Origin: Candidatus Heimdallarchaeota archaeon
GTDB lineage: Archaea > Asgardarchaeota > Heimdallarchaeia > JABLTI01
Length of the DNA stretch: 16,087 nt
Direction: 5' to 3'
NCBI GenBank assembly: GCA_019894765.1
Contig: JAGXNT010000078.1
Span: 1 to 16,087, forward strand
Under the pieces are notes generated by a model that made no database searches, was not told the origin of the DNA, and saw nothing but the letters and a program-made list of their open reading frames with translations. The first letter of the stretch is position 1, and every line of letters begins with the position of its first letter. The translations under genes and the position numbers were made by a program. Below are positions 86 through 15,324 of the stretch, one piece after another.

Positions 86-826
86 ATGAAAGTTATACCT
101 GTCATGGATCTTCTAAATGGGCAAGTAGTTCAAGGAAAAGGTGGTCGAAGAAACGACTATCAACCATTTCGAGATTCTGTTATTTCAAATGATCCAGCTC
201 CACTTTGTGTTGCCACTGCTTTTCATGAGAAGCTAGCTTTAGATTGGTTTTACATAGCAGATCTAGATAGAATTCAATCCATAAATAATGCTGAGTTAAA
301 TAAGAACATCATCATTGAATTAGTTGAAACATCTAACTACAAAATATCAATTGATGCAGGTTGCAAGCAATTAGAGGACATTGAGGAAGTAATTGATTGG
401 GGTGTTGATCAGGTTATTATTGGTACTGAAACTCTTAGGTCTTTAGAGGTTTTAGAAAAAGCTGTGTCAGAATTTAATCCTCAGAAAATTATCTTAAGTG
501 TTGATTTTAAAGGTGGAGAATTACTAGCTAATAGTGAAGAAATACGCAAGATAAAACCAATTGAAATTGCTGAGATTGCGGGAAAATTAGGATTAAAAGC
601 AATCATTGTTCTTGAGCTGCAAAAAGTAGGCAGCCAAACAGGACCACTAAATGATTCTTTATTACAAATTGTGGAGAACGTATCATCAATTCCTATAATC
701 ACCGGAGGAGGTGTACGCAGTATAGAAGACTTGAGTGTCTTAAAGAAAAAGGGTATAATGGGAGCTTTAGTAGCTACTGCATTTCACAATGGAAATATAA
801 AGAAAGAGGATTTAGAAGATCTTTAG
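86..826 (+). CDS. HisA-related TIM-barrel protein (COG1411 / hisAF_rel type)
   Basis: A 246-residue (beta/alpha)8 barrel of the HisA/HisF family, of normal HisA length. The opening IPVMDLLNGQVVQG (residues 4-17) is the first barrel strand, with Asp8 at the HisA catalytic-acid position. Asp140 in ILSVDFKGG sits where the second HisA acid lies. GGGVRS (207-212) is the typical phosphate-binding loop. The stretch GRRNDYQPFRDSV (20-32) and the later IADLDRI are typical of the HisA-related group called COG1411, not of true ProFAR isomerase. No other histidine gene is nearby, so the substrate is unknown; a sugar-phosphate or ribonucleotide isomerisation is an inference from the fold. The ATG at 86 lacks a ribosome binding site. 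An AT-rich box at about 52-60 lies at the right distance for a leaderless transcript. The gene overlaps the end of convergent purM by 4 bases. Confidence 0.8.
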   Translation: MKVIPVMDLLNGQVVQGKGGRRNDYQPFRDSVISNDPAPLCVATAFHEKLALDWFYIADLDRIQSINNAELNKNIIIELVETSNYKISIDAGCKQLEDIEEVIDWGVDQVIIGTETLRSLEVLEKAVSEFNPQKIILSVDFKGGELLANSEEIRKIKPIEIAEIAGKLGLKAIIVLELQKVGSQTGPLNDSLLQIVENVSSIPIITGGGVRSIEDLSVLKKKGIMGALVATAFHNGNIKKEDLEDL

Positions 827-1962
827 TACTTATCAGCGGGATACTCGATTGTTTCCGACGGTAATTCTAAAATTATCTTCTTTTCATCAATTATTGAACC
901 AATTCTAAATAACTTCTTCCCGTGTTTCTTACATATTTCTTTTAGTGTTGCTTCTTCAGTTTCTGGGGCAATAACACAAAAGCCTACACCCATGTTGAAA
1001 GTCTTATACATTTCTTTTACTGAAACATTGCCCATTTTCTGAATTAATTTGAAAATAGGGAGTGGTTCAGGTAATGAATCAAGCTTAACACCAACAGTTG
1101 TTTTTGCTTGTCTCATTAATCGGGCTAATTTAAGGAAGGATCCACCTGTGATATTAGCTAAACCATGAATATCAGCTTTATTAATCATCTCAAGAACTTC
1201 TTGTACATAAATCAAAGTTGGTTTGATTAATTCTTCACCGAGATGTAAGCCATCAACGACGTCATTTACTGTATGTTTTTCTAATAAGACACTTCTCGCT
1301 AATGAGTAGCCATTTGAATGCAAACCATTGCTTTCAATACCATAGATGATATCATCCGGTATAATTTTATCACCTAGAACGAGTTTCTTTTTCTCAACCA
1401 AACCAATTGCAGTTCCTGCTAAATCAAATCCTTTACCATTATGACCTCGGATAATATCTGGCAAAGTAGCTGTTTCTCCTCCTACCACAGCAATTTTTGA
1501 TTGAATTGCTCCTTCAACTAATCCCATTGCTATTTGATTTGCCATGATTGAATCAGGTTGTTCTATAGCGAAATAATCTACAAAAACAAGCGGTTCTGCA
1601 CCAACACAAATCAAATCATTCACATTCATAGCAATACAATCAATGCCTACAGTATCGAATTTCTCGAGCATTTCTGCAATAAGAACCTTCGAGCCAACAC
1701 CATCAACTGTAACCACTAAGTATTTGTCAGGTATACCGATATCAACAATCCCGCCATAGTGGGACATTGCAGGTAAAAATTTAGCGTTTGGATTTAATTT
1801 GAAGGTTTTTGGAAGCAATTTCCAGATTTCTTCAATTACTTTTCCTTCTTCAGCTATATCTACACCTGATTTCTTGTAAGTTGCACCTTTTTCATCCAAA
1901 TCTTTCACCTCAGGTTCGGTATCTACTTCGTTGTCAGAACCTGTTGTAGTTTTTTTACTCAA
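823..1962 (-). CDS. purM: Phosphoribosylformylglycinamidine cyclo-ligase (AIR synthetase)
   Basis: PurM closes FGAM to aminoimidazole ribotide (AIR) with ATP, the fifth step of purine synthesis, in the cytoplasm. Family signs are DGVGSK (87-92), NVNDL (113-117), GGETA (161-165), SNGLHSNGYSLAR (211-223) and FNMGVGFCVI (322-331). The usual PurM beginning (TYKKSGVDI) appears only at residue 28, so there is an extra acidic, Lys/Asp/Glu/Thr-rich N-terminus of 27 residues. The start is a TTG with GAGGT at 1974-1970 and a 7-nt spacer, which argues that this extension is translated. The ATG at 1967-1965 is out of frame and stops after two codons. In-frame GTG (V19) and TTG (L22) remain possible shorter starts. 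The gene stands apart from purSQL and purF and on the opposite strand. A TATA-like TTTAAAATAA lies at 2030-2021. Confidence 0.96.
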   Translation of the reverse strand: MSKKTTTGSDNEVDTEPEVKDLDEKGATYKKSGVDIAEEGKVIEEIWKLLPKTFKLNPNAKFLPAMSHYGGIVDIGIPDKYLVVTVDGVGSKVLIAEMLEKFDTVGIDCIAMNVNDLICVGAEPLVFVDYFAIEQPDSIMANQIAMGLVEGAIQSKIAVVGGETATLPDIIRGHNGKGFDLAGTAIGLVEKKKLVLGDKIIPDDIIYGIESNGLHSNGYSLARSVLLEKHTVNDVVDGLHLGEELIKPTLIYVQEVLEMINKADIHGLANITGGSFLKLARLMRQAKTTVGVKLDSLPEPLPIFKLIQKMGNVSVKEMYKTFNMGVGFCVIAPETEEATLKEICKKHGKKLFRIGSIIDEKKIILELPSETIEYPADKY

Positions 1963-2935: not shown

Positions 2936-4027
2936 TCATTCAGGTTTCTCGTTGGAAACTCCAATGGTTTTGAAGGTAGGAGCAGTAATTGTTACTTTAT
3001 TGGTTCTTCCCCATCGTTCACGAACAAGAACGTCTCTTTGCTCAAGTTTGAGTAGTATTTGGGAGACTTTTGATTTCGAATAACCCGTTTTCTCACATAT
3101 TCTTCTTTGGGTGGAAACCCCACCATCTTGATTTATTGCTTTAATGACTTCTTGCTCGGTTTTTGTTAACAAAGAACTAACAAGTTGACTTTCAGCAGGT
3201 TTGACTTTAAATCTGTAAACTAGGAAAATAACTAGACAACCTAGAAGTATCCCAGCTAATAGTGTTAGGATGTAAAATAAAGGTTTAAGATTAGAGTCAT
3301 TTGGTATATCACTGGTTCGAGTAACAAATCTGATAAGAAATACATCATCATCATCCATATCCCGATTTTCTAGTACCCAGTAAATTTTGACTATTCCATC
3401 CTCTTCCACGATTCTAAGGGGATTAGGATAAACAGGTTCTGGAGGACTTTGATCTAAAAGATCGCTTTCAGAAGGCAAACACAATTCAAGTTCAAATAGG
3501 TCAGTTTTTCGAGGATGGGTAATTTCGAAATCCAACCCATAATATTCAATTGGTTCCTGAACAGAATAGATTACTGTATCAATCCGATATTCGATAGAGA
3601 AAACATAGGTTTCATTCGGAAATAACGGATATCTCATTGAAACATTGACCAAACTTCCAGTTGTTATGTTTATTAGCCATGTGAAACTTAGAGAGCCAAT
3701 CGGGTCATATGAAAAAACAGAGGAGATATTTTTACTAATTAAAACAGCAAAGAAATCCATTGGTTGAGAATCATTATTCGTAACAACATAAGTAGATGTT
3801 ACTTTAAGTGAATAATCATTATTTACTTTTATTTTCATGTGATGTGCAAGTAAAGTCTCATTCTCAATTGAATTAGGCATCAAAGTAGAAACAGTATTGC
3901 TTTGTTTATGAAAATTAGAATTAGTGATTAATTCCTTTGATTTCACGCTTTGAAGATTTATCGGATTCATTAACATAAATGTGGTAAAAAAGAAGATGAG
4001 GTATATTTTGAATTTGCGTGAAGTCAT
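2936..4027 (-). CDS. Membrane-anchored winged-helix regulator 1 (COG2512 type)
   Basis: A 363-residue protein with an unusual layout for a regulator. An N-terminal hydrophobic signal or anchor (about 8-26) is followed by a beta-rich ectodomain (about 55-240) with several N-x-S/T sites. A transmembrane helix (about 248-271) and a cytoplasmic winged helix (about 286-348) follow. The recognition helix is GYSKSKVSQILLKLE (315-329) and the wing is RERWGRTNKVTIT (336-348). This is the plan of archaeal COG2512 membrane-associated transcription regulators. It is paralogous to the gene at 5303-6424: the DNA-binding domain is about 78% identical (46 of 59, counted by eye), while the ectodomain is much more diverged. 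It follows surface protein A by 121 nt. It may sense an extracellular or envelope signal and act on DNA from the membrane, perhaps at the neighbouring surface-protein promoters (inference). The start is ATG with a weak GTGGT at 4038-4034. Confidence 0.85.
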   Translation of the reverse strand: MTSRKFKIYLIFFFTTFMLMNPINLQSVKSKELITNSNFHKQSNTVSTLMPNSIENETLLAHHMKIKVNNDYSLKVTSTYVVTNNDSQPMDFFAVLISKNISSVFSYDPIGSLSFTWLINITTGSLVNVSMRYPLFPNETYVFSIEYRIDTVIYSVQEPIEYYGLDFEITHPRKTDLFELELCLPSESDLLDQSPPEPVYPNPLRIVEEDGIVKIYWVLENRDMDDDDVFLIRFVTRTSDIPNDSNLKPLFYILTLLAGILLGCLVIFLVYRFKVKPAESQLVSSLLTKTEQEVIKAINQDGGVSTQRRICEKTGYSKSKVSQILLKLEQRDVLVRERWGRTNKVTITAPTFKTIGVSNEKPE

Positions 4028-4051
4028 GTTGTTACCACACTTAGAGAATAA

Positions 4052-4060
4052 TTAAACAAG
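4052..4060. promoter_or_regulatory. Possible regulator half-site upstream of membrane regulator 1
   Basis: TTAAACAAG matches 8 of 9 bases of the TTAAACAAT half-site seen in both surface-protein promoters. It lies 25 nt upstream of the regulator 1 start. No partner half at the 8-nt spacing is present; a looser GTTTCA lies about 15 nt further upstream. In AT-rich DNA a single half-site can arise by chance. Confidence 0.25.
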
Positions 4061-4103
4061 ATTATAATGATATCGTTTCAGCTATTTTTTTCAATATAAT
4101 GAA

Positions 4104-4136
4104 AATGTGATCTTGGTTTTTTCCCAAAATCACATT
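4104..4136 (-). terminator. Strong hairpin just downstream of surface protein A
   Basis: AATGTGAT (4104-4111) and ATCACATT (4129-4136) form 8 perfect base pairs. After a single mismatch, the inner TTGG (4113-4116) pairs with CCAA (4124-4127) around a 7-nt loop. On the minus strand it begins 12 nt after the surface protein A stop codon and is followed by T-rich sequence. It fits a terminator or a 3'-end stabilising stem between surface protein A and regulator 1, and may let the two genes be expressed at different levels. Confidence 0.5.
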
Positions 4137-4148
4137 CAGAGAAAGCTA

Positions 4149-5114
4149 TTATTTTCTTTTTCTTACGATAGCGGCTATTGCAGCTGTCGCAATTATCCCA
4201 CCAATTATTGGGAAGATATATAGTGGAAAGCTGAACGCGTCTGGAAATATACCTATGGAGGGGTCATGTCTTAAGGTATATGAATCGCCATAATTTGGAT
4301 AAGTTAACCAGAAGTGAATCATTCCGGGTACTCCTGGACCTACACCTTGAGCGCCATCTTCAATGTATGCTGTTCCCACGTCAATTGTTGAGATTTTAAC
4401 TAAATTATCATATACATCAGCGAAAGTTGCCCATTCGTAAAAAGCGACTTTTTTATTGCCCTGTTCTTCACTTTCAAATTGCATGGTTCTTGTAGTATTA
4501 CCATTTTCAGCTGTTGTTCCATTCCTTACGCGAACTCTATGTCGTTGTTGAGATTCTAAAACTTGGGATTTGACTGCTAGTCCTGCTGCCCCTGGGCTGA
4601 AAACCCAATCTTTAACTACAATATCAAACTTTACTTCAGCTAGTGCATCTACAATTTGATCAGTTCCTTCAACTGGTTGATCAGTTTCATAGATGTTTAT
4701 TATGAATTGTACTTCAGCATCATTTGCTAAGCCTGAAAGTGTTAAAGTTACAGTAACAGATGTTTCATCTTCTACTATCTCAGATATCCAATCACTAGTA
4801 ACTAAATTGTAAGAAATACCACCTAGTTCTCCATTAGTATCTAGAGTATCATCAGGTCCAAAATACTCTTGTAATTTTGTGAATTGAACATTGTACATTT
4901 CATCTGATGTGCTTTGATTTCCATACCACCAAATAAAGTGTGGTTTTCCATCAACTAGTTTCAAAGTAATATAATCAGTTGAAATTGTAATTGCATCTTG
5001 TCCTTCCTTAACACCTATTTTTTCACTTTGTGCAGAGACATTATTAGTAATTGCAGGTAAGAAGAATAGGGCTATGAGTGAGATGCCGATCATTAATTTT
5101 GTTTTTGTTTTCAT
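4149..5114 (-). CDS. Surface protein A: secreted ectodomain with C-terminal membrane anchor, function unknown
   Basis: Not matched to a named family. The 321 residues comprise a signal peptide (about 1-28, plausible cleavage after NNVSA), a beta-rich extracellular domain, and a C-terminal hydrophobic anchor (about 297-317) ending in the basic tail RKRK. This signal peptide plus tail anchor plan is common for archaeal envelope proteins; a CTERM-type sorting tail is possible but not evident. Marked stretches are LQEYFGPDD (81-89), ELGGISYNL (96-104), LTLSGLAN (124-131) and DIVVKDWVFSPGAAGLAVKS (164-183), which recur in paralogue B at 6536-7513. It has four N-x-S/T sequons. The ATG has GAGGT at 5126-5122 and a 7-nt spacer. 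Its long leader (about 90 nt if the TATA call is right) and operator-like repeats suggest controlled expression. It sits between the two membrane regulators. Confidence 0.8.
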   Translation of the reverse strand: MKTKTKLMIGISLIALFFLPAITNNVSAQSEKIGVKEGQDAITISTDYITLKLVDGKPHFIWWYGNQSTSDEMYNVQFTKLQEYFGPDDTLDTNGELGGISYNLVTSDWISEIVEDETSVTVTLTLSGLANDAEVQFIINIYETDQPVEGTDQIVDALAEVKFDIVVKDWVFSPGAAGLAVKSQVLESQQRHRVRVRNGTTAENGNTTRTMQFESEEQGNKKVAFYEWATFADVYDNLVKISTIDVGTAYIEDGAQGVGPGVPGMIHFWLTYPNYGDSYTLRHDPSIGIFPDAFSFPLYIFPIIGGIIATAAIAAIVRKRK

Positions 5115-5226
5115 TTTTCTAACCTCTTAATTTTTTTTAAGATCCATTTTTTGTCATTAACTCAAACTTATAGTTGAGAAATTTACTTCACAATTCCCGC
5201 GATCTGGGTAAATGCTTACTAAAATA

Positions 5227-5233
5227 CATATAG
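5227..5233 (-). promoter_or_regulatory. TATA-like element of surface protein A promoter
   Basis: On the minus strand this reads CTATATG. It lies 13 nt downstream of the inverted repeat at 5247-5272. The surface protein B gene has CTATAC at nearly the same distance from the same repeat. Transcription would start near 5204, giving a leader of about 90 nt. Confidence 0.45.
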
Positions 5234-5246
5234 AATGAAGTTTATT

Positions 5247-5272
5247 TTAAACAATCTTTGACAATGGTTCAA
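5247..5272. promoter_or_regulatory. Operator-like inverted repeat upstream of surface protein A
   Basis: TTAAACAAT (5247-5255), an 8-nt spacer, then ATGGTTCAA (5264-5272), whose reverse complement TTGAACCAT matches the first half at 7 of 9 positions. The same arrangement occurs at 7569-7594 ahead of paralogue B, with the first half identical. It lies upstream of a TATA-like box, the place of an archaeal activator or upstream repressor site. The neighbouring winged-helix regulators are the natural candidates to bind it (inference). Confidence 0.55.
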
Positions 5273-5295
5273 GAATGGTTCAAAATGGGTTCAAA
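5262..5295. repeat. 11-bp tandem repeat of the operator half-site (3 copies)
   Basis: ATGGTTCAA begins at 5264 and again at 5275. A third copy with one extra G (ATGGGTTCAA) begins at 5286. The 11-bp period is close to one helical turn, so bound proteins would stack on one face of the DNA. The first copy is the right half of the inverted repeat at 5247-5272. The array ends 8 nt from the stop codon of membrane regulator 2. Confidence 0.7.
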
Positions 5296-5302
5296 ATCAA
5301 AT

Positions 5303-6424
5303 TTAGTCATCAAATTCTTTGCTCTTTTGAATTTCTGCTTCCCCACTTTCAAGTTCTATATTTAGGAAAGAAGGATTTGTGATTGTTACTTTATTTGTTC
5401 TACCCCAGCGTTCACGTTTCAAGACATTCTTTTCTTCCAGTTTCAGTAAAATCTGTGATACTTTTGATTTTGAGTATCCGGTCCGTTCGCAAATTCGACG
5501 TTGTATTGCTATTCCGCCTTCATCATTAATAGCTTGAATAACTGCTTGTTCAGAATCAGATAGTAGGGAACTAACTAGCTCAGATTTAACTGGATGATAT
5601 TTTCGCTTTATAATTAAATAGGAAACAAGTGTACTTATAGCTATGCCACCTAGGAAAGCAAGTATAACATAGAGGAATAGATAGGGGTTTGACGGATTAT
5701 CAATTGAAAAGGTAATATCTACTTCTTCGAACCTTATAGTAAACAGGTATTCAAAATAAGGAACGATATTCACAGACGTCCAAGCAATTTTCACAATGTT
5801 GTCTTCTGTGTAAACCCTTTCAGGTATAGGATATGTTGGGCGAGGGGATTCACCAGTAATCAAACCAAAACCAAGTGGTAATGAGATTTCTAAATCAAAT
5901 CTTTGAGTCTCTAAATAATGAAAAATGGCGTATTCAAGTGTAAAAAACTCTGAAGGTTCTTGAACGAGGAATGGCACCAATTCGGATAGAAAATAAGCAA
6001 TTGTTATTACATATTTTTGACCTTCAAGCAAAGGATACCTCATAGTTACGTTAAGAACACTGGAGTCTTCAAAAATATTCCAAGTAAATTCTAATGACCC
6101 GATCGGATCTGAAACAAATACATTACTAATTGAATCATTGATTACATACTGAAAATAATCAATAGTGCCATTTTCACTATTCTCAATGACTAAGGTCGAG
6201 TCAACACGTAATCTATAGTCTAATTGTATCTTCACTTTCATGTTATGAAAAATTATGAAGTCGCCATTTGAACTTGGAATAAATTCATTTGGATAAGTGG
6301 GAGAGCGATTTACAAAAGAAGGTGATTCAGCAAAATTATTCTCAGAACAAATTACCGGCAAGGAACCTTGAATTAAAACAAAGGTTGATAACAATATTAC
6401 CCCAATAATTTGTGATTTCTTCAT
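5303..6424 (-). CDS. Membrane-anchored winged-helix regulator 2 (COG2512 type)
   Basis: A 373-residue paralogue of the gene at 2936-4027 with the same plan: N-terminal signal or anchor (about 5-22), ectodomain (about 55-240), transmembrane helix (about 247-272), and cytoplasmic winged helix (about 288-349). Its recognition helix GYSKSKVSQILLKLE (316-330) is identical to that of regulator 1, and so is the wing RERWGRTNKVTIT (337-349). This implies that both read the same DNA site. The ectodomain keeps DPIGSL (106-111) and NVTMRYPLL (125-133) but is otherwise diverged, so the two may sense different signals. The C-terminal tail after the winged helix is acidic. The start ATG is preceded by GGGGA at 6435-6431 with a 6-nt spacer. 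It lies 111 nt after surface protein B and 188 nt before surface protein A on the same strand. Confidence 0.85.
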   Translation of the reverse strand: MKKSQIIGVILLSTFVLIQGSLPVICSENNFAESPSFVNRSPTYPNEFIPSSNGDFIIFHNMKVKIQLDYRLRVDSTLVIENSENGTIDYFQYVINDSISNVFVSDPIGSLEFTWNIFEDSSVLNVTMRYPLLEGQKYVITIAYFLSELVPFLVQEPSEFFTLEYAIFHYLETQRFDLEISLPLGFGLITGESPRPTYPIPERVYTEDNIVKIAWTSVNIVPYFEYLFTIRFEEVDITFSIDNPSNPYLFLYVILAFLGGIAISTLVSYLIIKRKYHPVKSELVSSLLSDSEQAVIQAINDEGGIAIQRRICERTGYSKSKVSQILLKLEEKNVLKRERWGRTNKVTITNPSFLNIELESGEAEIQKSKEFDD

Positions 6425-6444
6425 CTGATATCCCCAATTATAAT

Positions 6445-6462
6445 AATAGGTTTTACCCTATT
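6445..6462. promoter_or_regulatory. Inverted repeat in the leader of membrane regulator 2
   Basis: AATAGG (6445-6450) and CCTATT (6457-6462) are perfect inverted 6-mers around a 6-nt loop, just upstream of the ribosome binding site of regulator 2. It could be an operator or a leader hairpin. It does not resemble the TTAAACAAT-type repeat of the surface-protein promoters. Confidence 0.3.
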
Positions 6463-6493
6463 TTCAAAGACCTAATATCATAATTGTTAACTT

Positions 6494-6508
6494 ACTAAAA
6501 AATTTAGT
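6494..6508. terminator. Short palindrome after surface protein B
   Basis: ACTAAA (6494-6499) and TTTAGT (6503-6508) form a perfect 6-bp inverted repeat with a 3-nt centre, 28 nt downstream of the surface protein B stop. On the minus strand the repeat contains a T run. It could be a weak terminator or a regulator site for the next gene, and the sequence does not decide between them. Confidence 0.3.
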
Positions 6509-6535
6509 GGAATTAAAAGCAGAGAAGATAAAGGA

Positions 6536-7513
6536 TTATTTCCAGGCTTTTCTCCTGAAAACAATCACAAGTACATTAACAATTAGAATAGAGCCAATTA
6601 TAGGAATAATATAATTCCTTACTTGGTTTGAGGGATATGTGTTTCGATCATAAATTCCAAACACACACACATGATTTATTGTTAATGATTCATTGATTTT
6701 CGGATATGAAAACCAAGGATGAATTTTATCTTCTCCCGGAGGATCATTGGTTTCATTAAAGTATGAACTACCAATTTTACTGGTGTTATAATAGGTTGAG
6801 TCATTATAGTAGTCAGCATCATTAACCCAATAAACAAACGCTTTTTCTGGATTATACCCAGCATTACTTTGTATCTGAAGTGCTTCCACATTGCTATAAG
6901 GAATATAGGTATAATTCACAATATCTACATAATTTATATTCATGGATTCAAAAACTTCAGACTTTAGTGCTATTCCTTTAGCACCTGCAGTGAATTTCCA
7001 ATTTTTAACAACAATGGTAATTTGTGCTTCACTAAAAGGTTGCAATAATGCATCTGTATTTTCAATAGGAATTTCCAATTCTGATATATTAACTATAAAT
7101 TGAATTATTACATTATTCGCTAATCCGGAAAGCGTTAAATTAATCACTACATTAAATGAATCTTCAGTGACTTCATAATCCCATTCATTCGCTAAGAGAT
7201 CATAACTAATTCCACCGAGTTCATCACTATTATTGAGATAATCATCAGATCCAAAATATTCTTGTATTTTCATGAAACTCAAGCGGTATTCTTCAGCTGA
7301 GACAGATATATTATCGTGCCACAAAGCAAAATCAGGTTTATAGTTGAGAGCCTTAAAGGTCATTTTCTGGGTTGTAACAGTTATTTCATTGAACCCTGTA
7401 CCAAATCCAATAAACGCAGCACCATCTACTTTCAGATAAGGACTAGCTACAAAGACAGTTAATACTAGTAGTACCAATGAGATGATTACAGGATTTCTTT
7501 TCTTGATTAACAT
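6536..7513 (-). CDS. Surface protein B: paralogue of surface protein A, function unknown
   Basis: A 325-residue paralogue of the protein at 4149-5114. A signal or anchor segment lies at about 8-25, followed by a beta-rich ectodomain rich in N-x-S/T sites and a C-terminal membrane helix (about 300-319) ending in RRKAWK. Shared stretches include IQEYFGSDD (83-91), ELGGISYDL (98-106), NLTLSGLANN (125-134) and VVKNWKFTAGAKGIALKSEV (168-187). The reading frame is open back to a TTG at 7576. The ATG at 7513 is preferred because it gives a length close to paralogue A, puts the signal segment at the N-terminus and leaves the promoter repeat outside the gene. GAGG at 7531-7528 is 14 nt away, rather far for a ribosome binding site. 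It is the first gene of the four-gene block in transcription order. Confidence 0.75.
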   Translation of the reverse strand: MLIKKRNPVIISLVLLVLTVFVASPYLKVDGAAFIGFGTGFNEITVTTQKMTFKALNYKPDFALWHDNISVSAEEYRLSFMKIQEYFGSDDYLNNSDELGGISYDLLANEWDYEVTEDSFNVVINLTLSGLANNVIIQFIVNISELEIPIENTDALLQPFSEAQITIVVKNWKFTAGAKGIALKSEVFESMNINYVDIVNYTYIPYSNVEALQIQSNAGYNPEKAFVYWVNDADYYNDSTYYNTSKIGSSYFNETNDPPGEDKIHPWFSYPKINESLTINHVCVFGIYDRNTYPSNQVRNYIIPIIGSILIVNVLVIVFRRKAWK

Positions 7514-7568: not shown

Positions 7569-7594
7569 TTAAACAATCTCTTGCAACAGTTTAA
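7569..7594. promoter_or_regulatory. Operator-like inverted repeat upstream of surface protein B
   Basis: TTAAACAAT (7569-7577), an 8-nt spacer, then ACAGTTTAA (7586-7594). The left half is identical to that at 5247-5255, the spacer length is the same, and the distance to a CTATA box is nearly the same (12 versus 13 nt). The surrounding promoter sequence is otherwise only loosely similar. This points to a conserved site for a shared regulator. Confidence 0.55.
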
Positions 7595-8643: not shown

Positions 8644-9999
8644 ATGGCAGAATATATGGACACACCAATAGATTATGGAGAAGATGAAATCAATGATTTC
8701 ATTCCAAAGAATGCTAATGCTAAGTATCTCGAGATAAAAGGTGATTTTCCTGAAATCGTCAAGATTGAAGAAAAACTCTTCGAGGTATTAGAACAGCCTA
8801 TTGACAGCCCACCACTAAAAGAAGTAATTGCGAAGAATTACTCAAAAGGGAAAGCTGTAATCATCTTAGTAGATGATAACACAAGACCAAACATACATAC
8901 TCGAGTTTTATTACCAATTCTCTTTCCAAAAATCATCGAGTATGGAGTTGCAGCTGAGGACCTAAAAATATTAGTAGCCAGTGGCACTCATCGTCTACCA
9001 ACTCCAGAAGAAGTTGAAAGAAAGATTCTAGGAACAGAAATTTGGAACAAATACAAAGATCATGTTGTAGCACATAATTGTGATGAGGGAGTAAAGCAAA
9101 TTGGTACCTCAAGTAGAGGAACTCCAATCTTTCTTAATGAACTCGCTTTAGAATCATGTTTAATTATACCTTTAACAGATTCTGAATACCACTATTTTGC
9201 AGGTGTAGCTGGAACTGTGAAATCTTTCTTCCCTGGAATTGCGGGACGAAAAACTATCAGTAGAAATCATCCTAAAGCCTTTAGCTTAGAGACAGGTTTC
9301 AAAGCAGAATGCCGATTAGGAAATACTGAAGGAAACCCCGTTATCCAAGATATGAAAGAAATGGTTCAAACTGTAATGAAAACTAAAGCAGTCTTTTGTA
9401 TTGATGCTATTCTCAACGAAAAGAAAATAGTGCTGTTAAACGCAGGAAATATTATTTCTCTTCATGAAATGGCTGGAGAATTACTCAAACCATTAAGAGT
9501 CATTGATGTTGACAAACCAGCTGACTTAGTTATTGTAACTACAGGTGAACTTGGTTTGAACTTATACCAAGCAGGAAAAGGAGTACATGCTGCATGGAAT
9601 GCAGCAAAGAAAGGTGGTAAAATCTTACTTCTAGCAAAAGCACAGGAGGGAGTAGGTAATCAAGCCTATCATGATACAATGATTGCAATAAAAGAAATGG
9701 ACCTTGATGAAGCTCTAACCTGGGTAGTTGAGAACAAATGCAGCGAAGAAACCTTTAGAATCGGTAACCAAAAACCTGTAGATTTGTTACGAATACTAAA
9801 AGATAACCAAATTGACATGATTACTGAAATGGATCACAAAGAGCTCAAAGAAATCTTCAGAATTAACGGATTAGAAATCAAAGGAACAATACAAGAAACC
9901 CTACGAAACTATGTTAATAGCTTTTTAGAAGCGAAACCCGAAGGTTCTATTTATATCATGGCAGATGCTGGTAATTTTGTCAAACCGAAAGAGAACTAA
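8644..9999 (+). CDS. LarA-family nickel-pincer racemase/epimerase homologue
   Basis: A 451-residue member of the lactate racemase family (DUF2088 plus C-terminal domain). LarA enzymes use a nickel-pincer nucleotide (NPN) to racemise or epimerise 2-hydroxyacids by hydride transfer. All main LarA positions appear in order: DDNTRP (77-82, Arg81), GTHR (114-117, His116), HYFAGVAGTVKS (183-194, His183 and Lys193), NH (208-209, His209) and LYQAGKG (307-313, Gln309 and Lys312). Homologues act on lactate, malate, phenyllactate, gluconate and others, so the substrate is left open. The NPN synthesis genes larB, larC and larE are not in this window. The ATG at 8644 has GGATGG 6 nt upstream. It is followed by a 126-nt gap holding the purS promoter, so it is probably transcribed separately from the purine genes. 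Confidence 0.88.
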   Translation: MAEYMDTPIDYGEDEINDFIPKNANAKYLEIKGDFPEIVKIEEKLFEVLEQPIDSPPLKEVIAKNYSKGKAVIILVDDNTRPNIHTRVLLPILFPKIIEYGVAAEDLKILVASGTHRLPTPEEVERKILGTEIWNKYKDHVVAHNCDEGVKQIGTSSRGTPIFLNELALESCLIIPLTDSEYHYFAGVAGTVKSFFPGIAGRKTISRNHPKAFSLETGFKAECRLGNTEGNPVIQDMKEMVQTVMKTKAVFCIDAILNEKKIVLLNAGNIISLHEMAGELLKPLRVIDVDKPADLVIVTTGELGLNLYQAGKGVHAAWNAAKKGGKILLLAKAQEGVGNQAYHDTMIAIKEMDLDEALTWVVENKCSEETFRIGNQKPVDLLRILKDNQIDMITEMDHKELKEIFRINGLEIKGTIQETLRNYVNSFLEAKPEGSIYIMADAGNFVKPKEN

Positions 10000-10125: not shown

Positions 10126-10383
10126 ATGCCAGAATTTAACGCGGAAGTAATTATAGAGGGGAAGAAGAACGCGCGAGATCCCGAGGGAGAAACAATTATG
10201 CGTGACCTAATGATTAAGCATGGTTATGACATGGTTTCTTCTGTTCGTAGCGGGAAAATTTTGAAAGTCACTTTAGAAGCCAAAAATGAGAAAGATGCAG
10301 AAGACATCTGCTGGAATATGGTAAACGAACTTCGGATCTATAATCCGGTTGCTCATGTTTGTACAATCAAGATAGTAAAATAA
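10126..10383 (+). CDS. purS: FGAM synthetase subunit PurS
   Basis: An 85-residue small subunit of formylglycinamidine ribonucleotide (FGAM) synthetase. It has the PurS signature: an N-terminal strand (FNAEVIIEGK), DPEGETIMRDL (18-28), a central strand after VRSGKILKVTLEA, and the terminal NPVAHVCTIKIV. PurS dimers bridge PurQ and PurL so that ammonia made by PurQ reaches the PurL active site. It is the first gene of the purS-purQ-purL operon, 29 nt before purQ. AGGCGGT at 10108-10114 is a rather distant ribosome binding site for the ATG. Confidence 0.95.
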   Translation: MPEFNAEVIIEGKKNARDPEGETIMRDLMIKHGYDMVSSVRSGKILKVTLEAKNEKDAEDICWNMVNELRIYNPVAHVCTIKIVK

Positions 10384-10412
10384 GCTTGCTTTATAAATAA
10401 GGTGAACACAAA

Positions 10413-11129
10413 ATGCCAATGCGAGTAATAGTAGTTCAATTTTCTGGATCAACTTGTGATCGTGATCTGGTTTATGCCATGAAAGATGTCATGGGATGGG
10501 AAGTAGATCTTGTTTGGTATAAAGAGGCACAAAAGCATCTTGAAAGTTATGATGCGATTTTCTTACCAGGAGGATTTACTTATGGAGATCATCTCAGGGC
10601 AGGAATAATTGCAGCTTATACTCCTGTAATGGACAAAGTTAAGGACCTAGCAAAAGAAGGATTGCTTGTTTTAGGAATCTGTAATGGTTTCCAAATCCTT
10701 GTTGAATCAGGATTACTCCCAGGAGCTTTAATCGGTAATGATACCTTACGTTTCAGTTGTAAATGGACAAATCTGCGTGTTGAAACAACAAGAAGTGCTG
10801 CAACTAATATAGCTAAGAAAGGTGATATCTGGAAAGTGCCAATTGCTCACGGGGAAGGTAGATATTTTCTTGATGAAAAAGGTCTCAAAGAATTAAATGA
10901 AAATGACCAAGTGGTTTGGCGTTATGTTTCCGATAATGGAAAAATAACTATTGAAGATAATCCTAATGGGTCAATTGAAAGTATTGCAGGAATTTGTAAT
11001 TTAGAGGGCAATGTTGTAGGCTTAATGCCTCATCCTGAGAGAGCTTCTGAAAGCATCTTAAGTCCTTGGGGATCAGAGCATGGAAAATTATACTTCCAAT
11101 CACTTGAAAATTCTTTTAGGAGAGGTTAA
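10413..11129 (+). CDS. purQ: FGAM synthetase glutaminase subunit PurQ
   Basis: A 238-residue class I glutamine amidotransferase that releases ammonia from glutamine for PurL. The nucleophile is Cys90 in LGICNGFQIL, and the other triad members are His207 and Glu209 in PHPERA. The N-terminal VVQFSGSTCDRD is the PurQ form of the usual F-PGS-NCD start. LPGGFTYGDHLRAG (51-64) and IAHGEGR (144-150) are also typical. AAGGTG at 10399-10404 with an 8-nt spacer supports the first ATG rather than the one two codons later. The last codons contain the ribosome binding site of purL, so translation of the two genes is probably coupled. Confidence 0.96.
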   Translation: MPMRVIVVQFSGSTCDRDLVYAMKDVMGWEVDLVWYKEAQKHLESYDAIFLPGGFTYGDHLRAGIIAAYTPVMDKVKDLAKEGLLVLGICNGFQILVESGLLPGALIGNDTLRFSCKWTNLRVETTRSAATNIAKKGDIWKVPIAHGEGRYFLDEKGLKELNENDQVVWRYVSDNGKITIEDNPNGSIESIAGICNLEGNVVGLMPHPERASESILSPWGSEHGKLYFQSLENSFRRG

Positions 11130-11130
11130 A

Positions 11131-13374
11131 ATGATACAAGAAACTGTTATTCGAGATGAAATCAATCTCACTAAAGAGGAGAAAGAAGTAGTTTACAAAA
11201 CGTTAAACAGAGATTTAACCATCCCAGAAGCAGCAATGTTGGAAGTTATGAACTCTGAGCATTGTAGCTATAAAAGTTCAAGACCAGTCTTGCCAAAATT
11301 ACCTACAGAAGGTCCCAGAGTTATTTGTGGACCAGGTGAAGATGCTGGTGTAGTAGATATCGGTGATGGATTAGCACTAGTTTTCAAATTGGAATCACAT
11401 AATCATCCTTCCGCACTTGATCCATTCAATGGTGCAGCAACTGGTATTGGAGGAATAATTAGAGATATCCTGTGTATGGGAGCACGTCCAATAGGTTTGT
11501 TGGATAGTTTTCGACTTGGAAATTTATCAGACCCTCATACTAAATGGTTATTGAAGTGGGTGACTAAGGGTGTTGGAGATTATGGCAACTGCGTAGGAAT
11601 TTCCAATGCTGGAGGAGATATTGAGTTCGATCCCTCATTTCAAATTAATTGCTTAATCAATGTTGGTTGCTTTGGAGTTATGCGAAAAGATGAATTAGCA
11701 TTGAGTAGAGCAACAACACCTGGTGATAAACTCATTCTTCTAGGCGGTTCCACAGGTAGAGATGGTATCGGTGGTGCTTCCTTTGCTTCGAAGAATATTA
11801 CTGAAGATTCTGAAAGCGATAGAGGTGCGGTGCAAATCGGCGATCCCTATATGAAGAAATTGATTATCGAAGCAACTCTTGAGGCAATAAAGGCGGGTGT
11901 CGTTGAAGGGCTAAAAGATTTGGGAGCGGCAGGAGTTACTTGTTCTATTTCTGAAACTGCTGATGCAGGTGGTACAGGAACCGAGATTCAACTTGAAAAA
12001 ATAAGGATTCGAGAAGATGATATGGAGCCTTGGGAAATCCTTGTTAGTGAATCACAGGAAAGAATGTTTTTCGTAGTGAAACCTGATAATGTCAAGAAAA
12101 TTGGAAAAATCTTTGACAAATATGAGCTTCCCTATGAAATACTTGGTGAAGTAACTGATACAGGTAAATGTGTTGTAAAATATCACGATCACATTATTGT
12201 TGACTTGCCAGCTCATCTTTTAACTAAACCCCCGGCAGCAAATAGAAAAGCTACTTATCCAAAATACCTCAATAAATTGAATCAAAAATGGTTGCCAAAA
12301 GAACCCAAAGATAGTGAACTTAACGATATTTGTCGCAAAATAATGGCAAGTGACAATATGATAAGTAGAGAATGGGTTTACAGACAATACGATACAGAAG
12401 TAGGATTACATTCTGTTATTAAATCTGGACAAGCTGATGCGGGAGTATTTCGATTATCAGAATTTAATACCAAGAAAGGCATTGCTGTTACTTTCGATGG
12501 AAACTCTCATCATTGTTACTTGGATCCATACAATGGCGGTGCTGGAATTATGATGGAAGCGTGCAGCAATGTTGCAGCTGTTGGTGCTGAACCGATTGCT
12601 ATGACAGATTGTCTTAACTTCGGAAATCCAGAACACCCACAAGTTTTCTGGACTTTTGAAAAAGTAGTAGAAGGACTTGCAGATGCTGCAAAAGCTCTTG
12701 GTGTTCCTTGTGTAGGGGGAAATGTAAGCTTTTACAACCACGATGAAGTAAGAGATGTAGCTGTAAAACCATCCCCAGTAATTTTCGTTGCAGGTTTACT
12801 GGAAGATGTTGAAAAAGCCGTGAATAATAGCTTCAAATCGCCTGATGAATTCATTATACTAATTGGTAATACAAATACTGAGATTGGTGGATCTGAATAT
12901 TCAAAAGTCATCCATTCATCTGATGATGGGCAAGTTCCAAAAGTAGATTTTGCTAATGCGAAAAACGTGTTAAAGAAAGTCGTGAAGACAGTGAATGAAG
13001 GATTGGTTACTGCTTGTCATGACATTTCTAAAGGTGGATTATTTGTCGCTTTAACTGAAATGGCAATGGCTGGAAATTTAGGTTTTAAAGTAGGACTCAA
13101 AAGAATTCCCGCAGACACACAAAGAAGTGACATAAAACTTTTCTCGGAAACACATGGACGATTCTTAATGACTGCTAAAAAAGAAGACATGGATAAATTG
13201 ATAGCGATTTTTGCTGAAGATGAAATTCCAGCATCATACATAGGTATTGTTACCCAAAAAAAGAAACTCATCATAGAAAACGAAGAAAATAAAATTATTA
13301 TAGATCTTCCATTAGACGAAATAAAACAAGTATGGGAAACAAGAATGGTGGAAGAAATGGAAGGAAAGAGCTAA
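11131..13374 (+). CDS. purL: FGAM synthetase large subunit PurL (small-PurL type)
   Basis: A 747-residue synthetase subunit that turns FGAR into FGAM with ATP and ammonia from PurQ. This is the length of the bacterial and archaeal PurL that needs PurS and PurQ, not the 1200-1300-residue fused form. Motifs include SEHCSYKSSR (42-51, active-site His44), ESHNHPSALDPFNGAATGIG (88-107), GGSTGRDGIGGASF (205-218), PYNGGAGIMMEACSN (466-480), DCLNFGNPE (493-501), GGNVSFYN (529-536) and HDISKGGL (630-637), all in place. The frame is open upstream into purQ, but the ATG at 11131 is chosen: it follows the purQ stop by one base and has GAGGT at 11122-11126. The gene ends 3 bases from the convergent gene at 13378. 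Confidence 0.97.
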   Translation: MIQETVIRDEINLTKEEKEVVYKTLNRDLTIPEAAMLEVMNSEHCSYKSSRPVLPKLPTEGPRVICGPGEDAGVVDIGDGLALVFKLESHNHPSALDPFNGAATGIGGIIRDILCMGARPIGLLDSFRLGNLSDPHTKWLLKWVTKGVGDYGNCVGISNAGGDIEFDPSFQINCLINVGCFGVMRKDELALSRATTPGDKLILLGGSTGRDGIGGASFASKNITEDSESDRGAVQIGDPYMKKLIIEATLEAIKAGVVEGLKDLGAAGVTCSISETADAGGTGTEIQLEKIRIREDDMEPWEILVSESQERMFFVVKPDNVKKIGKIFDKYELPYEILGEVTDTGKCVVKYHDHIIVDLPAHLLTKPPAANRKATYPKYLNKLNQKWLPKEPKDSELNDICRKIMASDNMISREWVYRQYDTEVGLHSVIKSGQADAGVFRLSEFNTKKGIAVTFDGNSHHCYLDPYNGGAGIMMEACSNVAAVGAEPIAMTDCLNFGNPEHPQVFWTFEKVVEGLADAAKALGVPCVGGNVSFYNHDEVRDVAVKPSPVIFVAGLLEDVEKAVNNSFKSPDEFIILIGNTNTEIGGSEYSKVIHSSDDGQVPKVDFANAKNVLKKVVKTVNEGLVTACHDISKGGLFVALTEMAMAGNLGFKVGLKRIPADTQRSDIKLFSETHGRFLMTAKKEDMDKLIAIFAEDEIPASYIGIVTQKKKLIIENEENKIIIDLPLDEIKQVWETRMVEEMEGKS

Positions 13375-13379
13375 GCTCT
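13367..13379. terminator. Palindrome across the two convergent stop codons (purL and the PRC-like gene)
   Basis: AGAGCT (13367-13372), A, AGCTCT (13374-13379) is a perfect 6-bp inverted repeat. It contains the purL TAA and most of the facing gene's TAG. An outer GGAA/TTCC pairing (13363-13366 with 13385-13388) could extend it, and T-rich sequence follows on the + strand. It is a possible compact two-way terminator. Confidence 0.35.
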
Positions 13380-13758
13380 ATCTTTTCCTCTCTTTTTGTT
13401 TATGTTTCAAGTTACCAGGATCAAAAATCATTGTACCAGAAGCACCCGTTTTATAAACACCAATATTACCAGAATAAGTTTCTCGCACAGCTTTAACTAG
13501 CTTAGCAGTTTTCACCTTTTCATCAAAATCCTCTTTTGAAATATCAAACCTAGCAAATTGCCCTCCGACTTTGACAACTTTTTCAATATCAATAGGAACA
13601 ACAACTTTCTTTTTAAAACGTATTTTCACAAGAATCATTGCGTAAGGTTTGTATTTCTTAATTGTTTTTCCGAGAAGTTTATCTATTCGGATAATTTTAC
13701 CCAATGTCTTATTCTCTTTATCAACTGCAATTTTTGAAATCAATATTTTATGACTCAA
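13378..13758 (-). CDS. Small basic PRC-barrel-like protein, function unknown
   Basis: A 126-residue lysine-rich protein. LGKIIRIDKLLGK (19-31) followed by alternating strands (MILVKIRFKKKVVVPIDIEKVVKVGG, written here as residues 41-66) resembles a PRC-barrel-type small beta barrel, as in archaeal PRC-domain proteins and the RimM C-terminus. This is a pattern-level guess. The C-terminal part (SGNIGVYKTGASGTMIFDPG) is unrecognised and ends in a strongly basic tail, HKQKERKR, that might touch RNA or acidic surfaces. There is no signal peptide or membrane segment. The start is TTG with AAGGGGT just upstream (GGGGT at 13768-13764, 5-nt spacer). It is divergent from purF, with which it shares an AT-rich promoter region, and convergent with purL. 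Confidence 0.7.
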   Translation of the reverse strand: MSHKILISKIAVDKENKTLGKIIRIDKLLGKTIKKYKPYAMILVKIRFKKKVVVPIDIEKVVKVGGQFARFDISKEDFDEKVKTAKLVKAVRETYSGNIGVYKTGASGTMIFDPGNLKHKQKERKR

Positions 13759-13780
13759 AATTAACCCCTTATAGTTTATT

Positions 13781-13795
13781 GTATACTATATATAC
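13781..13795. promoter_or_regulatory. Shared TATA-rich promoter centre between the PRC-like gene and purF
   Basis: GTATACTATATATAC holds GTATA and TATAC arms around a 5-nt centre, so it reads as a TATA-type element on both strands. It could serve purF (leader of roughly 80 nt) and the minus-strand gene (very short leader). The 13817-13846 stretch also has AGATTC...GAATCT arms with an 18-nt loop; this may be chance. Confidence 0.4.
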
Positions 13796-13893
13796 ATCTA
13801 GTGATTTAAGGATTTCAGATTCCATTCTTCTTTTGATAGAGAATCTAAAGATTTTAAAACCAATGCCTTCTTAAGTCGCTTGAGGATACTTAT

Positions 13894-15324
13894 TTGTCAA
13901 TCAAAGATCATTGTGGCATTATAGGAATTCGAACTACAAAACGCATTCATGATTTAGGTTTCTTATTATACCAAGGTATGCTAGCTTTACAGCACCGAGG
14001 ACAATCTAGCGCAGGAATAACAGTCATAAATAAGAAGAATATGAAAACGATTTCTGATGTTGGTTATGTAAAAGATATCTTTGATAAAAACACTTTAGCG
14101 GCCTTAAAAGGAAAATTCGGAATAGGACACGTTCGTTATCCTACAGCTGGAGATGATTTGACTGTAGGCATTCAACCCTTTGTTCTTCAAACAAGGCAAT
14201 TAAAAATTGCGATTGCGTTTAATGGAACAATTGCGAATTTTGAAGAAGTTAGGGATTTTCTCATGGATCAAGGATTCAGATTTAGTCATGATACAGATAC
14301 AGAAGTAATTGGCAAATTGCTGGATTTTGTGCTTGAAGAAGAAAATGGTGACATAACAAAAGCTTGTAAAAGACTCATTGGTTATTTAGATGGAGCATAT
14401 TCTATTTTAATCGCAACAAATAAGGGAGAAATAATAGCATTAAGAGATCCTCTTGGATTTAAACCACTTTGTTATGGGAAAACAAAGGAAGGAGATTTTG
14501 TTATTGCCTCTGAAACTATTGGATTATCAATTGTTGGAGCGAAATTCGAGGATGATGTGAAACCAGGTGAAATGGTAAGCATCAATGAAAAGGGCATAAA
14601 GAAAAAGCGACTAGTAAAAGAAGAAAAGGTAGCTCATTGTATGTTTGAGTGGGTTTATTTTGCCAGACCTGATGCCTTATTAGATGGAATTTCCACCTAT
14701 GAAGCAAGAGAGCGAATTGGTAAAGGACTAGGCAAATTATTCAAAGAAAAAGGATTTGAAGCGGATATTGTTGTCCCAATCCCAGATTCAGGTAGAATAG
14801 CAGCTATTGGTTTTTCCAAAGAAACAGGTATAGAGTATTCTGAAGCATTAATTAGAAACAGATATGTTGGTCGTACATTTATCATGCCACGTCAAGCTGC
14901 TCGAGAGGAAGCAGTAAAACTCAAACTCAATGTCATGCAAAACCTTGTGAAAGGAAAGAAAGTGGTTCTAGTTGATGACTCGATTGTAAGAGGAACCACC
15001 TCTAAAGGAATAATAAAAATGATTAGAGAAGCGGGAGCAACACATGTGTATTTTGCTGTGAGTTGTCCACAACTCATTAATCCATGCTTTATGGGAACTG
15101 ATTTCCCAACAGAAAGAGAACTAATAGCTTGTGGACGAACAGATGAAGAAATCGCTGAAATCATAGGTCTAGATGCTGTGATCTATAATACTGTTCCCTT
15201 ACTAGTTGATGCAATTGGGTTCGACAAGTGGCCTGATAACAATCATTTATGTTTGGCTTGTCTTACCGGTGAATACCCACTAAGAAAATCACCCCCACTG
15301 ATTCTTTGCGAAAGAGAATCTTAG
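13894..15324 (+). CDS. purF: Amidophosphoribosyltransferase (glutamine PRPP amidotransferase)
   Basis: PurF makes phosphoribosylamine from PRPP and glutamine, the committed step of purine synthesis. The N-terminal Ntn-hydrolase domain begins CGIIGI at Cys7, so a six-residue propeptide must be removed to free the catalytic cysteine. Other marks are LQHRGQSSAGI (32-42), GHVRYPT (78-84), FNGTIANF (109-116) and the PRPP loop VVLVDDSIVRGTTSK (357-371). Cys249, Cys398 and the CLAC pair Cys453/Cys456 match the four ligands of the [4Fe-4S] cluster in Bacillus-type PurF, implying oxygen sensitivity. The start is TTG with GAGGA at 13882-13886 and a 7-nt spacer; the codons before it do not give a better start. 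purD follows after 89 nt on the same strand. Confidence 0.96.
   Translation: MSIKDHCGIIGIRTTKRIHDLGFLLYQGMLALQHRGQSSAGITVINKKNMKTISDVGYVKDIFDKNTLAALKGKFGIGHVRYPTAGDDLTVGIQPFVLQTRQLKIAIAFNGTIANFEEVRDFLMDQGFRFSHDTDTEVIGKLLDFVLEEENGDITKACKRLIGYLDGAYSILIATNKGEIIALRDPLGFKPLCYGKTKEGDFVIASETIGLSIVGAKFEDDVKPGEMVSINEKGIKKKRLVKEEKVAHCMFEWVYFARPDALLDGISTYEARERIGKGLGKLFKEKGFEADIVVPIPDSGRIAAIGFSKETGIEYSEALIRNRYVGRTFIMPRQAAREEAVKLKLNVMQNLVKGKKVVLVDDSIVRGTTSKGIIKMIREAGATHVYFAVSCPQLINPCFMGTDFPTERELIACGRTDEEIAEIIGLDAVIYNTVPLLVDAIGFDKWPDNNHLCLACLTGEYPLRKSPPLILCERES

Follow-up and report, generated by a model that had tools for sequence, protein, structure and literature searches.

A gene pair for a surface protein and a membrane-tethered regulator, duplicated as a unit in an Asgard archaeon

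Four consecutive minus-strand genes in a 16,087-nucleotide stretch of DNA from a Candidatus Heimdallarchaeota archaeon (contig JAGXNT010000078.1; this whole stretch is called the window here) encode, twice in the same order, a surface protein, S, followed by a membrane-bound regulator, R. This raises the question whether S and R work together and, if so, how. The original prediction, made from the letters of this DNA, was that a functional unit had been duplicated and that the pair forms a sensing circuit. The answer that we consider likely is that each S-R pair is a self-contained surface-control circuit in which R senses the outside of the cell and binds the S promoter, and S would be the output and probably also a feedback ligand or co-sensor.

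The two pairs and their proteins

In the order of transcription the genes are S2 (7513-6536, 325 amino acids [aa]), R2 (6424-5303, 373 aa), S1 (5114-4149, 321 aa) and R1 (4027-2936, 363 aa), S1 and R1 being copy A of the pair and S2 and R2 copy B. R1 and R2 align over 365 columns with 44% identity (E 1e-91) and S1 and S2 over 265 columns with 39% identity (E 6e-62), so the arrangement as two copies of one pair is confirmed by the coordinates and by the paralogy of both members. The S2 frame is also readable from TTG 7576; ATG 7513 is favoured as its start because an operator-like site overlaps the extension to TTG 7576. The tandem array recurs at loci L070-L074 and L082 and is therefore no assembly artefact, and L002, from a close relative, has it in the same surroundings.

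R has the layout of a membrane-tethered one-component regulator, with the sensor outside, a span and a DNA-binding domain inside in one chain, as predicted from hydropathy and an AlphaFold2 (AF2) model. An N-terminal hydrophobic segment is followed by an ectodomain, one span (model helix 249-276) and a winged helix-turn-helix (wHTH) of the DUF7343 type; in R2 the ectodomain lies at about 52-237, the span at about 249-276 and the wHTH at 287-348. The layout of ectodomain, one span and winged helix that had been proposed for R is thus borne out by hydropathy, the AF2 model and a profile match, the DUF7343 profile (PF24034) giving 52.6 and 54.8 bits on the two R proteins of the window against a curated cut-off of 27.6 and matching all 65 R members at E<=0.1. 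The cytoplasmic wHTH of R is therefore a clear member of this Pfam family, for which no description of function, and no paper naming DUF7343, was found in the literature searched. Among 23 aligned R members the wHTH carries most of the invariant columns (for example S318 K319 S320 K321, R337 and R339-T343), and between R1 and R2 it is 74% identical as compared to 42% for the ectodomain. Set against the 39% identity of the S copies, this fits two sensors that share one type of control site.

The best match of the modelled R ectodomain is the membrane-proximal luminal domain of Ost1 (ribophorin I). The Pfam Ribophorin_I profile matches 17 of the 65 R members at E<=0.1, the best at 1.1e-5. R2 remains under the cut-off of this profile (PF04597; 14.9 bits as against 25), with a match that covers residues 82-183 only and not the whole length, and a PDB sequence search with an R profile returned three matches at E 0.21-0.3, none of them Ost1. 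R has an Ost1-type luminal domain, yet it falls outside the Ost1 family proper: it is without the first Ost1 domain and has a wHTH inside the cell. The separate Asgard proteins that do pass the Ribophorin_I cut-off are mostly open frames of about 580-750 aa. Asgard oligosaccharyltransferase subunits including Ost1 have been reported, and the parts of these two reports that were examined contain no mention of a transcription factor with an Ost1 domain (PMC10307638, PMC11417166).

The S chain consists of an N-terminal hydrophobic segment, an ectodomain, a single C-terminal span and a basic tail. The earlier description of S as tail-anchored is better replaced by that of a type I membrane protein. 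The model of S1 has the fold of the luminal domain of GLMP (NCU-G1) plus the C-terminal span. The GLMP family of Pfam (PF15065) has no match over its cut-off in 227 Asgard genomes; at E<=0.1 it has matches in 29 of the 227, and the S profile, applied to the best eight of the 32 places listed, assigns all eight to the S family. In hhalign four S alignments gave weak probabilities of 0.5%, 0.3%, 44% and 8% against a mammal-only GLMP profile, all below the 58% over 37 columns of the S against R control. A hidden Markov model (HMM) of S did not separate mammalian GLMP (best 9.3 bits) from R decoys (9.4 bits), and in the other direction the top rank with a GLMP HMM went to an S and the following ranks to non-S open reading frames (ORFs), again with no separation. 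A PDB sequence search with an S profile gave two matches (E 0.47 and 0.99) and no GLMP. The two proteins differ also in place, since S would be on the archaeal cell surface and GLMP is in the lysosome. According to the parts of the two sources examined, GLMP is the accessory subunit of the dipeptide uniporter MFSD1 (PMC11252000, PMC6819133); no MFSD1 partner was found for S, one neighbour of the major facilitator superfamily (MFS) having been compared with PDB sequences. This one, in L118, is NorA-like; transporter genes beside S in other loci encode a Na/H exchanger in L088 and MFS_1 and MFS_2 proteins in L114 and L165. We regard it as doubtful that GLMP descended from an Asgard S that was wired to a factor with a ribophorin-I domain as a nutrient or surface sensor, the two extracellular modules of that circuit being reused later in the lysosome and in the oligosaccharyltransferase of the endoplasmic reticulum (ER).

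Pairing and duplication across Asgard archaea

When the same 227 genomes were searched for S and for the R ectodomain, S was present in 91 (E<=0.001) and the R ectodomain in 32. A listed S match lies within 1.5 kb on the same strand in 44 of the 66 R matches, where about 0.14 are expected and none was found on the opposite strand, and 29 of the 32 R-bearing genomes have an S-R pair. With profiles made from these matches, further pairs came to light in G073, G160, G180, G181, G186 and G188, which had no earlier R match, and in G201 (loci L122, L192, L184, L172, L149, L161 and L141). Both gene orders are found, S before R in the window's group and R before S in another. Counted as unique genes over all fetched loci and the window (133 S and 74 R, some loci having been fetched because of R), S lies beside 54 of the 74 R, and an adjacent same-strand R is found for 55 of the 133 S. 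It had been said that S homologues usually lacking a COG2512-type neighbour would speak against the circuit. What we find is a tight association seen from R and a looser one seen from S.

A second class of neighbour adjoins 16 of the 133 S genes. It is another membrane-bound wHTH protein, found in L118, L119, L153, L181, L187 and others and divergent from S in nine of the 16; the L181 protein was Pfam-typed, with a DUF7347 wHTH and about five spans, and the others were assigned by similarity to it. S genes seem to have a tendency to associate with more than one kind of membrane-bound regulator. For five S genes the neighbour is M42-like, for nine it is transketolase-like, and 48 have none of these kinds. 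The S paralogues of L078-L081 and L085, which have no R, stand before an M42 aminopeptidase-like gene, and L078, the typed one, has a succinyl-CoA-ligase-like gene as well; this context suggests peptide or amino-acid fermentation. A gene of 667-690 aa stands beside S repeatedly, in several genomes, at L111, L115, L116, L120, L167, L169 and L174, the one in L167 being typed as transketolase.

The remaining 20 of the 74 R genes have no S beside them. For 18 of these the next gene is no more than 300 bp away, on the same strand in 16, and all 16 same-strand genes start with a hydrophobic segment (background 139 of 627), 15 of them 70-109 bp downstream. Five were Pfam-typed, four as NosD/beta-helix proteins and one as beta-lactamase-like. 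Since S-less R genes adjoin genes for secreted-type proteins, R would be a type of regulator for secreted-protein genes generally, with S as its commonest partner.

In the window's lineage S and R were duplicated together as one unit, and not each family independently as an alternative to the original prediction had it. In trees of 51 S-R pairs (FastTree, midpoint root) a clade of the same seven loci, namely the window, L070-L074 and L082, unites the S2 copies in the S tree, where it is nested inside S1, and the R2 copies in the R tree, where it is sister to R1. The two trees agree as a whole (Mantel r 0.72; none of 2000 permutations was as high, the largest being 0.24). Since a common species history also contributes to this correlation, more weight is due to the copy clades that match between the trees. 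A third pair type with overlapping genes (L127, L146-L148, L168 and L186; L188, also of this type, was outside the tree) branches apart in both trees. In L133 (777-14644) two 792-aa genes, the first typed as beta-helix, lie in tandem directly downstream of an R gene, and a second R with a 789-aa gene follows further on; R units duplicate with other surface proteins too.

Operator-like sites upstream of S genes

Each S promoter of the window has one operator-like site on the minus strand. The site upstream of S2 (7572-7591, AACTGTTGCAAGAGATTGTT) has no mismatch to the motif of the window's group and overlaps a TTTAAAT TATA-like element; the site upstream of S1 (5250-5269, AACCATTGTCAAAGATTGTT) has two mismatches and is followed by TTTAAAATA. 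Three GAACCMATT-like direct repeats noticed by eye (5262-5292, minus strand; starts 5292, 5281 and 5270, 11-bp spacing) run into the S1 site. At up to three mismatches the window contains exactly these two matches, one for each S promoter, where 0.12 are expected, and one of 200 shuffles has two.

GTTGC/GCAAC words were first spotted by eye upstream of S genes and tested afterwards. Upstream of 47 paired S genes there were 51 such words as compared to 6.1 in shuffled sequence, upstream of 45 paired R genes 4 as compared to 6.1, and upstream of 18 R genes without S 4 as compared to 1.9; since the words are not enriched in paired R promoters, there is no sign that R simply regulates its own gene. 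Over all loci, the 180 nt upstream of 54 paired S genes held 52 words in 9720 nt (5.35/kb), with at least one in 28 of the 54. The density was 1.94/kb for 60 other S genes, 1.04/kb for 16 S genes beside a DUF7347-type regulator, 1.21/kb for 69 R genes and 1.06/kb for 332 other genes of the same loci, 56 of which had at least one word. These scans took the farthest start codon, which put the 180-nt stretch too far upstream in several loci (L090, L092, L095, L097, L099, L100 and others), so that sites there are undercounted.

As words and patterns were derived from some of the promoters that they then matched, the fairer test is how scarce matches are elsewhere in whole genomes. In 15 genomes of the group with R before S, GTTGCNNANCGTTGC has 7 matches in 6 genomes (reversed-pattern control 1), and all 7 sit 76-90 bp upstream of an S match. 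In 10 genomes of the window's group AACYGTTGYNAGAGATTNTT has 39 matches at up to two mismatches (control 13), those of G060:C89 and G061:C178 being assigned to S by position. All 6 perfect matches are in S promoters. Of the 6 with one mismatch 3 are in S promoters and 3 precede secreted-type proteins (an SBP_bac_5 protein of 643 aa, a vWA protein and a 143-aa protein), and the 27 with two mismatches comprise 9 S promoters, 16 places inside long open frames and 2 without a following ORF. For the third pair type the site is a palindrome, GAACWGTTCA-N5-9-TGAAC, with 13 matches (control 2). Ten of these are before the S of this pair type in six genomes, four of which have two each, and the other 3 precede a single further secreted-type protein (434-435 aa) in G058, G062 and G063; the promoter of the third pair of G063 is off the contig. 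When the strong matches to the three patterns are pooled, 26 of 32 are in S promoters and the remaining 6 lie before secreted-type proteins that are not S. These sites lend support to the claim that S is the output. A looser operator pattern with three mismatches gave 212 matches in 15 genomes as compared to 151 for the control and was uninformative. Two R-less S promoters before M42-like genes, G002:C36 and G060:C89, carry the motif with two mismatches. In L241 (1089-3835) two genes that we take to be TldD/PmbA-like are convergent to the SBP_bac_5 gene with the motif promoter.

The proposed circuit, competing explanations and known systems

A probable explanation for these observations is that R is a one-span membrane-tethered transcription factor whose ribophorin-I/Ost1-type beta-sandwich domain reads the surface from outside. 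Its DUF7343 winged helix would bind, inside the cell, the predicted site near the TATA box of S and set the transcription of S, a type I protein with a GLMP-like ectodomain that would be the main output and probably also a ligand or co-sensor contacted by R. S-R pairs occur widely among Asgard archaea, and neither the adjacency nor the co-duplication test refuted the sensing circuit proposed at the outset, which is thereby supported. Several observations weigh against it. Seventy-eight of the 133 unique S genes are without an adjacent R and 20 of the 74 unique R genes are without S. The GTTGC words are enriched upstream of 30 S genes without R as well (19 as compared to 4.8 in shuffled sequence), and the upstream motif could belong to another factor. 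An exact GTTGCNNANCGTTGC match is lacking in 9 of the 15 genomes, all of which have an S match, in G058:C13, G062:C95 and G014:C8 no AACYGTTGYNAGAGATTNTT match at up to two mismatches precedes the S genes paired with R, and the third pair of G058:C7 lacks an exact palindrome match. The reuse of source promoters noted above counts here too, and the loci are related by descent, so that the counts are not independent events.

Other explanations have to be set beside the circuit. It is possible, if rather improbable, that R senses the state of secretion or of glycosylation through an Ost1-type domain that binds nascent or misprocessed secreted proteins at the translocon, S being one client of several and R tuning the neighbouring surface gene. 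The fold of the R ectodomain, closest to Ost1, is in keeping with this, as are the Ribophorin_I matches among R members, the secreted-type proteins encoded after S-less R genes and the 124 of 227 Asgard genomes in which a protein passes the Ribophorin_I cut-off as well. We think it unlikely that S is a peptide-transporter accessory, as GLMP is, or a peptide receptor, with R matching the level of S to the extracellular peptide supply. A peptide role of S is hinted at by the GLMP fold, by the M42 aminopeptidase genes that follow five S genes (one Pfam-typed) and by the motif before the SBP_bac_5 gene in G002; against it, the SBP_bac_5 link comes from one genome, no MFSD1-like partner was seen, the sole MFS neighbour compared with PDB sequences being the NorA-like one, and nine of the 133 S genes adjoin a transketolase-like gene.

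That S and R form a complex while some unrelated factor binds the upstream sites, R acting elsewhere or not on DNA, is quite unlikely in our judgement. It would account for the lack of enrichment in paired R promoters and for the sites at some S genes without R; however, the wHTH is the best-kept part of R, and the sites differ between pair types. Neutral conserved synteny with no functional coupling appears very improbable. The racemase, Rieske, hydrolase, PurM and HisA/HisF-like flanks are syntenic in L002 as well, but pairing occurs in both gene orders with different flanks and far above chance, and the matching trees and the promoter-site searches also disfavour it.

The S-R pair is, in our rating, membrane-tethered one-component regulation, a known kind, in which both the sensor domain and the partner are unusual. 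In Sulfolobus acidocaldarius ArnR and ArnR1 are membrane-bound one-component regulators of the archaellum and pili, acting on promoters of surface structures with defined boxes; like R they are paralogous archaeal membrane-bound HTH regulators, and according to the parts of the source examined ArnR has an N-terminal HTH, a HAMP-like domain and two C-terminal spans (PMC6396743). R differs in its extracellular Ost1-type domain, its one span, its C-terminal wHTH and the neighbouring surface-protein gene; ArnR/ArnR1 is the functionally nearest known system, with a different architecture. ToxR and CadC are membrane-tethered wHTH regulators as well, and ToxR is encoded beside its membrane partner ToxS, as R is by S; their domain order is reversed relative to R, and the partner of R is a large GLMP-like protein. 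No description of an S-R circuit was found in the literature searched, most subscription journals being outside its reach. Membrane-tethered regulators in archaea are hardly studied, and the R family comes with a likely target gene, candidate sites at base resolution and model folds of both proteins, so that regulator, site and output are directly testable. If the GLMP and Ost1 links reflect descent, two eukaryotic membrane modules of the secretory pathway and the lysosome are related to parts of a signalling circuit in the Asgard archaea, the archaea closest to eukaryotes.

A 10-bp stem-loop (4107-4133, minus strand) lies just after the S1 stop in the gap between S1 and R1. In an alignment of 10 orthologous gaps both sides of the stem have changed at three pairs, all in L082, and 3 of 100 cells are broken; it is possibly a terminator or processing element that keeps R below S. 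Elsewhere in the window, a nickel-pincer (LarA-type) racemase family protein, under the subfamily cut-offs, is encoded at 8644-9999, and PurS-, PurQ-, PurL- and PurF-like purine synthesis genes, identified by reading, lie on the plus strand at 10126-15324; PurM (823-1962, minus strand, TIGR00878) is split from them by the S-R array and other genes.

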